Assembly (NCBI GenBank): GCA_036399815.1
Contig: DASWMK010000017.1
Span: 1-49,380, forward strand
Direction: 5' to 3'
DNA: 49,380 bases
Source of the DNA: Acidimicrobiales bacterium
GTDB lineage: Bacteria; Actinomycetota; Acidimicrobiia; Acidimicrobiales; DASWMK01
The position numbers and the translations under genes were made by a program. Positions 11,741 to 15,273 of the stretch are shown here, piece by piece. Within the stretch, counting starts at the first letter, position 1. Each line of letters starts with the position of its first letter. The notes beneath the pieces were generated by a model. It made no database searches and was not told the origin of the DNA. It saw nothing but the letters and a program-made list of their open reading frames with translations.

Positions 11741-12283
11741 TCAGGCCCTGCGGACGGCGGCGACCAGGTCGTCGACCGGCGGGCGGTCGGCCGGGCCGCC
11801 CGAGCGGTGGACCATGACGACGCGCCCGTCGCGGCCGACGACCACGTCGCCGCCGAGCTGGAGGGTGTCGCCACCGACCCGCTGGAGGCGGCGGCCCCGG
11901 CGGAGCAGCTGCCCGTACCGGCGCAGCGTGGCCGGCCCCCACACCCGCCACCACGGGCCCCGCCCGAGCCCGTAGGCCCGGTACACCGCCCGGTCCTCGT
12001 CGCTCAGCACGGGGTAGGGCAGGCCGAGCCTGGCCCGGTGGCCGCGGAGGACCCGCTGGGGCGCGAACGTCACGAGGGCGACGGCGGCGTCGCCGAGGTC
12101 GTCGAGGCGGTCGCGCACGGCGACCGCATGCTCCTGGCAGGGCAGTCAGGCGAGGTGGCGGTGGAAGATCAGCACCACCGGCCGGCCGAGGTGGTCCGCC
12201 AGGCGCCACCGGCCGCCGGCCCAGTCGGGCAGGTCGACGTCGGGCGCCGGGTCACCGCAGTTCGGGGGCACGGGCGCCAGCAT
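11741..12283 (-). CDS. Peroxiredoxin-like (PRXL2/SelU-type) redoxin, predicted selenoprotein with UxxC motif (TGA = Sec46)
   Basis: Reading through one in-frame TGA (12148-12146) gives a 180-residue thioredoxin-fold protein. Before the TGA: 'PNCGDPAPDVDLPDWAGG' and 'GRPVVLIFHRHLA'. After it: 'LPCQEHAVAVRDRL', then 'ALVTFAPQ', 'GLPYPVLSDEDRAVYRAYGL' and 'LQLGGDVVVGRDGRVVMVHR'. These match the PRXL2-type redoxins, whose active site is CxxC right after the 'FxRH' strand; here it reads U46-L-P-C49. Without readthrough no usable start is upstream of the active site, so the fold would lose its first strands. A perfect 8-bp hairpin follows. Vertebrate SelU of this superfamily also uses Sec here. The start at 12283 overlaps the GGDEF/EAL gene by 32 nt; a GTG at 12271 is an alternative. 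Likely a thiol-dependent reductase or peroxidase in the cytoplasm. Confidence 0.75.
12107..12127 (-). promoter_or_regulatory. Candidate bacterial SECIS hairpin (redoxin gene)
   Basis: On the minus strand GCGGTCGC pairs perfectly with GCGACCGC (8 bp) around the loop CGTGC, which begins 26 nt after the TGA. Known bacterial SECIS elements have a G in the first two loop bases and a UGA-to-loop distance of roughly 16-37 nt; both hold. A weaker alternative puts GGTC in a loop 20 nt after the TGA, closer to the fdhF geometry. Folded by eye. Confidence 0.5.
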
Positions 12284-14975
12284 GCCCGACGGTGGCCTCG
12301 GTGGCCTCGGCGGCCTCCTGCTCCCGCGCCCGCAGGTCGGCGAGGAACTCGGCCCCCGGCCGGGGCGCGCCGAGCAGGAACCCCTGGGCCCGGTCGCAGC
12401 CGAGCTCGGTGAGCCGGCGCAGCGCCACCTCGTCCTCGACGCCCTCGGCCACGACCCGCAGGCCGAGGTTGTGGCCGAGGTCGATGATCGAGCGGACGAT
12501 GGTGGCGTCGCTCTCGTCGCTGCTCATCGTGGCCACGAACGACCGGTCGATCTTGATCTCGTCGAGGGGCAGGTGCTTCAGGTAGGACAGCGACGAGTAG
12601 CCGGTGCCGAAGTCGTCCACGCTCGACGCCACGCCCAGCTCGCTCACCTCCCGCAGCACGGAGAGGGCGAGCAGCGGGTCGTCCATCAGGTGGCTCTCGG
12701 TGATCTCGAGGGTCAGCCGGCCGGTGGGCAGGCCGGTCCGCCGCAGCAGCCGGGCCAGCCACGGCGCCAGCTCCGGCTCGTAGAGGTTGCGCACCGAGAG
12801 GTTGACGGCGACGCCGAGGTCGAAGCCCTCGCCGGCCCACCGGCAGCACTCCTGCACGGCCCGCTCGATCACCCACCGGGTGAGCGGCTGGATCAGGCCG
12901 GACAGCTCGGCCAGCTCGATGAAGTCGCCGGGGGCGACGAGCCCGTCGCGGGGGTGCTCCCAGCGCACCAGCGCCTCGGCCCGCACCACCCGCCCGGAGC
13001 GGAGGTCGACGAGCGGCTGGAAGTGGAGGGTCAGCTCCTCGTCGGTGAGCGCCCGCCGCAGCTCGCCGAGCAGGGTGAGCCGCCGCACGCTCGACTTGTC
13101 CTGCTCGGCGGCGTAGGTGGCGAAGTCCCACCCGCTGCGCTTGGCGAGGTACATGGCCACGTCGGCCCGCTGCACGAGCTCGTCGGCGTGGTCGGCGTGC
13201 TCGGGGTAGTGGGCGATGCCGATGCTGGCGCTCGACTGGAGGCGCAGCCCGTCGATGCTGAACGGCTGCTCCAGCGCGTTGGTGATCTTGCGGGCCACCA
13301 CCTCGGCCCCGGCCCGGGACACGTCGGTGGTGAGGAGCACGGCGAACTCGTCGCCGCCCAGGCGGGCGATCGTGTCGCACTCCCGCAGCACGTCCTCGAG
13401 CCGCCGGGACAGGGCGACGAGCAGGCGGTCGCCGTGGTGGTGCCCGAGGGCGTCGTTGACCTCCTTGAAGGCGTCGAGGTCCATGACGAGCAGGGCGACG
13501 GCCGACCCCTCGCGGTTGGCGGTGACGAGCGCCTGCTGGAGGCGGTCGAGGAGCAGCACCCGGTTGGGCAGGCCGGTGAGGTCGTCGTGGGTGGCCTGGT
13601 GGCGGAGCAGCTCGGCCGACCGGGTCGCCGCGGTGACGTCGTCGAGGGAGACGCCGACGGCGTCGCCGGGCAGCGGGAAGGCCCGCACCGAGAACAGCCG
13701 CTCCTGGTCGACCGGCCACTCGACGGCGAAGGCCCGGTGGGTGCGGACGACGCCGGCCAGCCGGCGGGGGAGCACGGTCTTCACCAGCGAGGGGAAGGCC
13801 TCGACGACCAGCCGGCCGACGAGGTCGGCGGGGTCCCGGCGCAGCAGGCGCCCGGCCTCGGGGTTCACCGCCACGATCCGCAGCGACCGGTCGTCGTCCC
13901 GGTCGTCCAGGCGGACGACGAACAGGCCGACGGCGATGTTCTCGACGATGTCGGCGAACTGCCGGACCCCCTCCTCGGCCTGCCGCCTGGTGGTGACGTC
14001 GACCATCAGGCCCCGGACCCGCACGGGGCGGCCGTGCCGGTCCCGCTCGATGCGGACCACGTCGTGCACCCAGGCGGTGGTGCCGTCGGCCCTCACCATC
14101 CGGTACTCGAGCTCGTGGTCCCTGCCCTCCTCCTCGGACTGGAGGCAGTAGGCGATCACGGCGTCGCGGTCCACGGGGTGGAGGTGGCGGGGCCAGAACT
14201 CCGGGTCGTCGACCCAGTCGGCGGCCGAGTAGCCGAGCAGGCTCTCGGCCCGCCCGGAGATCCAGCGGATCGACGCGCTCCCCGGGTCGCTCTCCCAGAC
14301 GACGGCGTCGAGCCCGGCGACCAGCTCGGCGTAGCGCTGGCGGAGGATGCGCTCCAGGGCGACGACCGAGGTGACGGTGAGGACGACGACGGTGCCGGAG
14401 ATGGCGAGGCCGAACACGCCGACGATGCCCTGGGGCGGCTGGGAGACGATCACGGCGACCGACATGCCGGCCACGGCCACGGCCAGGCTGCCGACGGCCT
14501 GGCGGCGGCCGAAGGCGACGGCCGTGAGGGCGAGGTCGGAGATGGCGACGATCAGGGTGGCGACGAACGTTCGGGGCTCGACGGCCGTGAAGGCGGCGGC
14601 GAGGAACGGGCTGCTCCACACGAGCGCCGTCGGGAGCCGCCGGGTGCGCCGCCAGAGCAGGTGCAGGCCGACCTCGTAGGGGAGGACGAGGGTGACCATG
14701 GCGGCCGCGATCCACAGGCGGTGCGGGCCGATGGCCGGGACCAGCGCGGCGGCCAGCGCCAGGGCGACGACGCCGGCGTGACGGGCGAGGAAGACGCGGG
14801 ACCAGAGCAGCTCGCGCCAGATGACCGCCTCCGGCACCTCGAGGCCGTGGTCGCCCGTCGGCTGGAGGTGCAGGGGCGCGTCGTCGTGCTCGGGCGCGGC
14901 GACCACGTCCCCCCGCCGGGGGGCGCCGACGATCACGCCCGTCCCGCTAGGGGGCGGGGTCCGCACGTTGTGCAC
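12252..14975 (-). CDS. Membrane-bound PAS-PAS-GGDEF-EAL cyclic-di-GMP enzyme
   Basis: A 907-residue protein. An N-terminal tail leads to about six hydrophobic helices (roughly residues 65-225), then two PAS-type segments ('VWESDPGSASIRWISGRAES' begins the first; 'GVRQFADIVENIAVGLFVV' the second). The GGDEF domain is intact ('ARLGGDEFAVLL') with a product-inhibition I-site RxxD ('RECD') just before it. The EAL domain is intact too: 'RAEALVRWEHP', 'NLSVRNL', 'LEITESHLMDD', 'DDFGTGYSSLSYLK', 'KIDRSFV'. It could both make and break c-di-GMP. Start GTG at 14975 is chosen because GAAAGGA lies 8-9 nt upstream; a minus-strand TACGCT at 15051-15046 may be its -10. Confidence 0.92.
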   Translation of the reverse strand: MHNVRTPPPSGTGVIVGAPRRGDVVAAPEHDDAPLHLQPTGDHGLEVPEAVIWRELLWSRVFLARHAGVVALALAAALVPAIGPHRLWIAAAMVTLVLPYEVGLHLLWRRTRRLPTALVWSSPFLAAAFTAVEPRTFVATLIVAISDLALTAVAFGRRQAVGSLAVAVAGMSVAVIVSQPPQGIVGVFGLAISGTVVVLTVTSVVALERILRQRYAELVAGLDAVVWESDPGSASIRWISGRAESLLGYSAADWVDDPEFWPRHLHPVDRDAVIAYCLQSEEEGRDHELEYRMVRADGTTAWVHDVVRIERDRHGRPVRVRGLMVDVTTRRQAEEGVRQFADIVENIAVGLFVVRLDDRDDDRSLRIVAVNPEAGRLLRRDPADLVGRLVVEAFPSLVKTVLPRRLAGVVRTHRAFAVEWPVDQERLFSVRAFPLPGDAVGVSLDDVTAATRSAELLRHQATHDDLTGLPNRVLLLDRLQQALVTANREGSAVALLVMDLDAFKEVNDALGHHHGDRLLVALSRRLEDVLRECDTIARLGGDEFAVLLTTDVSRAGAEVVARKITNALEQPFSIDGLRLQSSASIGIAHYPEHADHADELVQRADVAMYLAKRSGWDFATYAAEQDKSSVRRLTLLGELRRALTDEELTLHFQPLVDLRSGRVVRAEALVRWEHPRDGLVAPGDFIELAELSGLIQPLTRWVIERAVQECCRWAGEGFDLGVAVNLSVRNLYEPELAPWLARLLRRTGLPTGRLTLEITESHLMDDPLLALSVLREVSELGVASSVDDFGTGYSSLSYLKHLPLDEIKIDRSFVATMSSDESDATIVRSIIDLGHNLGLRVVAEGVEDEVALRRLTELGCDRAQGFLLGAPRPGAEFLADLRAREQEAAEATEATVGHAGARAPELR

Positions 14976-15045
14976 CCACGTCGTCCTTTCGGCCGATCGG
15001 TCCCGGAGTTCAGCCCCGCCTCTCGTCGTGACCGTCGGCCCGCAC

Positions 15046-15051
15046 AGCGTA
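15046..15051 (-). promoter_or_regulatory. Possible -10 (TACGCT) of the GGDEF/EAL gene
   Basis: TACGCT on the minus strand would give a leader of about 65 nt with a Shine-Dalgarno. The surrounding 148-bp gap also holds the opposite-strand TACGAT at 15088, so it looks like a divergent promoter region. Confidence 0.35.
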
Positions 15052-15087
15052 TGCGTCGCGGCTCGACGCGTGAGGCCGCCCCGGGCG

Positions 15088-15093
15088 TACGAT
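15088..15093 (+). promoter_or_regulatory. Possible -10 (TACGAT) of the 15124 gene
   Basis: TACGAT fits TAnnnT (4 of 6 bases of TATAAT). It lies 30 nt before the ATG at 15124, which has GGGAGG about 10 nt upstream, so this transcript would carry a short leader. Confidence 0.35.
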
Positions 15094-15123
15094 TCGCGCA
15101 CGGCGCGTCGGGAGGTTCGGGCG

Positions 15124-15273
15124 ATGAGCGACCAGGGCGATCCTCGGGAGGGCATCCCGACGAGCAACGAGGTGAAGCGAACGCCGGATCCCGGGTTCGA
15201 GTTCGAGCGGGACCCGCGCGACGTCCCCGATGTCGGCGGCGAGCCCGAGCCCGACGACGGCGTCGAGCCGTAG
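15124..15273 (+). CDS. Small acidic hypothetical protein, 49 aa
   Basis: Short unrecognised protein, rich in Asp, Glu, Pro and Gly ('DVGGEPEPDDGVEP' at the end), probably disordered. Coding is supported by a Shine-Dalgarno (GGGAGG), a possible -10, and close spacing (4 nt) to the membrane protein gene that follows. It may be an accessory of that protein, but there is no direct evidence. Confidence 0.5.
   Translation: MSDQGDPREGIPTSNEVKRTPDPGFEFERDPRDVPDVGGEPEPDDGVEP

Follow-up and report, generated by a model that had tools for sequence, protein, structure and literature searches.

A SelL-related redoxin gene of an Acidimicrobiales bacterium with an internal TGA probably read as selenocysteine

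Peroxiredoxin-like (Prx-like) selenoproteins with a UxxC site were already catalogued by 2005 and are known from Sargasso Sea and GOS aquatic metagenome surveys (PMC1088965, PMC2398784); the family is also listed in a 2026 review (PMC13188914). SelL, likewise Prx-like, has a UxxU motif and a diselenide, and within the Actinomycetota an AhpC selenoprotein has been described from Blastococcus (PMC5330540). Among the papers searched, no description was found of NF040769, the NCBIfam model for SelL-related redox proteins, or of selenoproteins from Ilumatobacter or the Acidimicrobiia, and none treats the UxxC family in Acidimicrobiia. Here we describe a redoxin gene in a 49,380-nucleotide stretch of an Acidimicrobiales genome (the window) that we judge, with a probability of roughly 0.96, to be a genuine SelL-related selenoprotein gene in which an internal TGA is read as selenocysteine (Sec). 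Its features are collected in Table 1.

Table 1. Coordinates within the window of the redoxin gene and its features.
Feature	Position	Strand	Basis or remark
Full selenoprotein gene, SelL-related redoxin (probable)	11741..12283	-	180 aa, Sec = residue 46; alternative start GTG 12271
Sec codon TGA, first residue of U-L-P-C (probable)	12146..12148	-	column comparison of 94 distinct loci
TGC codon of Cys49, UxxC partner residue	12137..12139	-	invariant in relatives' alignment
Terminator TGA of redoxin gene	11741..11743	-	direct reading
Bacterial SECIS hairpin GCGGTCGC-CGTGC-GCGACCGC	12107..12127	-	meets published bSECIS constraints; pairing conserved across relatives

The preliminary description of this DNA had placed an in-frame TGA between the residues FHRHLA and LPCQEH, at the site of the first Cys of the usual redoxin CxxC, and had read it as Sec to give U-L-P-C. 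The sequence bears out the frame and its positions, and the Sec reading is supported by Cys homologues, a conserved SECIS, Sec machinery and a conserved N-terminus. Translated with TGA as U, the open reading frame runs from ATG to terminator with the motif FHRHLA-U-LPC; without read-through the called ORF is only 125 aa (GTG 12118..11741), which is the piece that a pipeline had been expected to report. Standard gene calling thus shortens a gene that the present analysis recovers as that of a probably intact selenoenzyme. Global reassignment of TGA was considered and rejected because this same gene ends at TGA and the Sec column holds Cys in relatives.

The residues upstream of the TGA had been said to encode the missing N-terminal strands behind a good ATG. 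The strands are indeed present in the AlphaFold2 model (E17-20, E25-27, E36-40), but the start is less definite: several relatives (L028, L030, L036, L060) have Met at the position of window residue 5, which corresponds to GTG 12271, so translation of the redoxin may begin at either ATG 12283 or GTG 12271. A PAS-GGDEF-EAL protein is encoded upstream (window 12252-15167, minus strand) and overlaps the possible ATG start by ~32 nt; this neighbor in the window gives no hint as to the substrate or reductant of the redoxin.

Comparison of the Sec column among homologues carries much of the argument. Among 395 genomes of the same class that were searched, the closest homologues lie in 11 other genomes (E < 1e-40), ten of which have TGA at the site and the eleventh Cys, and a scan of ~85,000 species genomes yielded 71 further loci. 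One of the two scan patterns spelled Cys at the Sec site, and the locus set was therefore not selected for TGA. After duplicate removal the 94 distinct homologous loci show TGA (86), TAG (1) or Cys (5) in this column, which is uncovered in the other 2, such that a stop codon occupies it in 87 of the 92 distinct relatives covering the site. The Cys that the preliminary description anticipated here among relatives is thus found in 5 of 94 loci. TGA loci span phyla and include a single-contig genome (G027) and the isolates Ilumatobacter nonamiensis (L092), Actinomycetospora cinnamomea and Pseudonocardia nigra. A different account would make the TGA a true stop, produced by sequencing error or nonsense mutation, and the gene either the 125-aa ORF from 12118 or a pseudogene; the locus does lie on a draft-genome contig, and default gene callers do return the shorter piece. 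It is opposed by the recurrence of the same TGA in 86 of the 94 distinct loci, across phyla and in isolates, and the occurrence of that codon in isolates and in a single-contig genome excludes both a private nonsense mutation and the base-call error at 12146-12148 that had been named as a possible refutation. Furthermore, in the alignment to relatives (residues 10-180) residues 10-45 are 47-75% identical, higher than residues 47-180 in every pair, indicating that both flanks of the TGA have been selected as one protein. The concern that relatives might lack the first 46 residues is thereby removed, these being conserved at least as well as the rest and supplying three strands of a model with pLDDT 95. 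We give a genuine stop at this position next to no credence.

Several homologues depart from the common UGA-encoded UxxC form. In Modestobacter sp. DSM 44400 (L115) a SelL-related homologue has TAG in place of TGA at the Sec column, in agreement with the UAG-Sec decoding reported in Geodermatophilaceae (PMC5330540), and a homologue from a Myxococcales MAG (L125) has two in-frame TGA codons, giving U-L-A-U, a SelL-type UxxU. Further removed are redoxin families within the Acidimicrobiia (L038, L041-L055) with the motifs FLRHFG-U-L[HL]C and AIRYYG-U-IPC; most of their members likewise show TGA in this column, and a hairpin follows at nearly constant spacing.

The hairpin downstream of the Sec codon agrees with its earlier description as a perfect 8-bp stem with loop CGTGC beginning 18 nt past the TGA. 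The published bSECIS model calls for 3-9 loop nucleotides, a G being among the first two, a stem of 4-16 bp, a UGA-to-loop distance of 16-37 nt and an energy <= -7.5 kcal/mol (PMC13188914). The window hairpin, with a 5-nt loop, G at the second position, 8 bp, an apical loop 26 nt past the TGA and -14.9 kcal/mol, falls within all of these bounds, and the SECIS prediction suggested as a check therefore comes out positive. Single-sequence folding of the region gives a z-score of -0.59, which is not significant, so that the SECIS claim rests on comparison across relatives. In 48 distinct Sec relatives the unbroken pairing that starts at the loop has a mean length of 4.83 bp; when codons are redrawn synonymously the mean is 2.06 +/- 0.23, and 0 of 2000 redraws reach the observed value. 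Sliding one arm against the other gives fewer pairs. Compensatory changes leave all 8 pairs in L030 and L031 and 6 in L027; the Cys homologue L028 was examined and has no hairpin of this kind. In some Sec relatives (e.g. L029, L033) the hairpin is less strong or departs from the standard model, and a subset of bacterial SECIS elements falls outside that model according to the review (PMC13188914). Part of the loop conservation could be explained by a Val codon of the protein.

Most of the machinery for Sec insertion is present in the draft genome (287 contigs), though not all of it. A tRNA-Sec with anticodon TCA (67.6 bits; UCA in the RNA) and selD (331 bits) were found, along with the C-terminal end of selB, within whose C-terminal domain contig C24 (L018 1-200) starts; as queries, neither the family model nor a relative's protein brought up selA in the draft. 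The earlier suggestion that the Sec reading would fail for want of machinery is thus answered by tRNA-Sec and selD and left standing for selA and, the fragment aside, for selB. The assembly is rated 96.7% complete, yet it lacks selA and most of selB. Genes following the selB fragment match in order the genes downstream of selAB in a related genome (G064), and since selA immediately precedes selB there, an assembly gap is the likely reason for its absence here. Tracing the Mrp-like gene that precedes selA in G064 led to contigs C136 and C51; neither contig reaches selA, so the selB fragment is the sole ground for the gap explanation.

Genomes around this one give a more complete picture. tRNA-Sec and selA occur together in all ten close TGA relatives, and among the nearest relatives every further genome that has a TGA match also has selA. 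Of the 395 class genomes, 66 have a TGA-bearing match, and tRNA-Sec and/or selA is present in 63 of these versus 241 of the 329 others (p = 1.3e-5, a value that serves only as a guide since the genomes are related), and the three exceptions, having neither gene, are 68-79% complete. The genome itself also contains a candidate second selenoprotein, judged from its sequence: a formate dehydrogenase alpha subunit (L151, contig C168:33587-34954) in which a TGA lies in frame at the position of Sec (NQARI-U-HS), with the hairpin GTCCCC-GGTCT-GGGGAC, loop GGTCT, after it. These observations bear on whether the redoxin TGA might instead specify Cys or some other amino acid, through a suppressor tRNA or a tRNA-Sec that is otherwise charged, as the missing selA would permit. 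Such decoding sits poorly with the presence of selD, with a selB fragment at a contig end whose counterpart in G064 has selA directly upstream, with selA in all ten close TGA relatives, with the SECIS and the formate dehydrogenase Sec site in this genome, and with the use of TGA as terminator of the redoxin gene, which speaks against any global reassignment; we consider it very improbable. Under the selenoprotein reading, SelB carrying Sec-tRNA(UCA) would bind the hairpin just 3' of the UGA and Sec would be inserted at that codon.

AlphaFold2 predicts a thioredoxin-type fold over the full length of the protein (pLDDT 95.4) and places the U-L-P-C motif at the N-terminal end of helix 1. In structure the model comes closest to peroxiredoxins of the PrxQ/BCP and AhpE types (TM-score 0.70-0.75), and ResA also matches. 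Alignment with PrxQ proteins puts Cys49 at the position of the peroxidatic Cys and Sec46 at the Thr of TxxC. The PrxQ/BCP and AhpE matches and the position of Cys49 would suit a selenoprotein that acts as a true, peroxide-reducing peroxiredoxin, but the replacement of the motif Thr by Sec46 and the additional match to CxxC oxidoreductases of the ResA type tell against this role, which we consider possible though rather unlikely. We lean instead towards a thiol/disulfide oxidoreductase, with fair though by no means full confidence. In its catalytic cycle the Sec46/Cys49 pair would alternate between reduced selenol/thiol and selenylsulfide, the redoxin reducing disulfides and/or peroxides and presumably being re-reduced by a cellular thiol system.

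These results carry a family familiar from aquatic surveys into a wide range of Actinomycetota. Tentatively, and on balance doubtfully, Acidimicrobiia and other Actinomycetota may hold a SelL-related subfamily that uses Sec by default and Cys rarely, possibly with a dedicated partner thiol or substrate, whose Sec codon changed from UGA to UAG in Geodermatophilaceae in the wake of the tRNA anticodon. The Sec, Cys, UxxU and UAG homologues together provide a clean set for testing what selenium contributes to thioredoxin-fold chemistry.

Comparison with established families places the redoxin most firmly with NF040769, which it matches at 144.8 bits against a curated cut-off of 120 (residues 12-176), as do all 12 aligned relatives; no difference was met in this comparison, and by its sequence the protein is SelL-related and a member of an already catalogued bacterial selenoprotein family. 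The proposed membership of the joined 180-aa protein in the redoxin families is further upheld by AhpC-TSA (PF00578, 63.3 bits). AhpC-TSA_2 (PF13911) is matched at 40.3 bits over a cut-off of 27, for residues 78-160 only, and human PGF synthase is among the fold matches, both being points in common with PRXL2/SelU and prostamide/PGF synthase; the redoxin scores higher with PF00578 and NF040769, however, and on this sequence evidence the PF13911 match is insufficient for SelU membership and does not show SelU identity. Eukaryotic SelU has its SECIS in the 3' UTR. SelL proper shares the NF040769 relation and the thioredoxin-like motif but has a second Sec where the redoxin has Cys49, so that U-L-P-C is not a UxxU site. 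The classical peroxiredoxin motif PxxxTxxC is not retained either, its Thr aligning with Sec46 and its Pro being replaced in the HRH segment. The Blastococcus AhpC selenoprotein is likewise of AhpC/TSA type, from Actinomycetota and equipped with a bSECIS, but its Sec codon is UAG whereas that of the redoxin is UGA (PMC5330540). Closest in kind is the Prx-like UxxC family, to which we liken the redoxin by description: both are distant Prx homologues with PF00578 and with UxxC in place of TxxU, the one from aquatic metagenomes (PMC1088965, PMC2398784) and the other from Acidimicrobiia. The redoxin opens no new mechanism and joins this known Prx-like UxxC kind.
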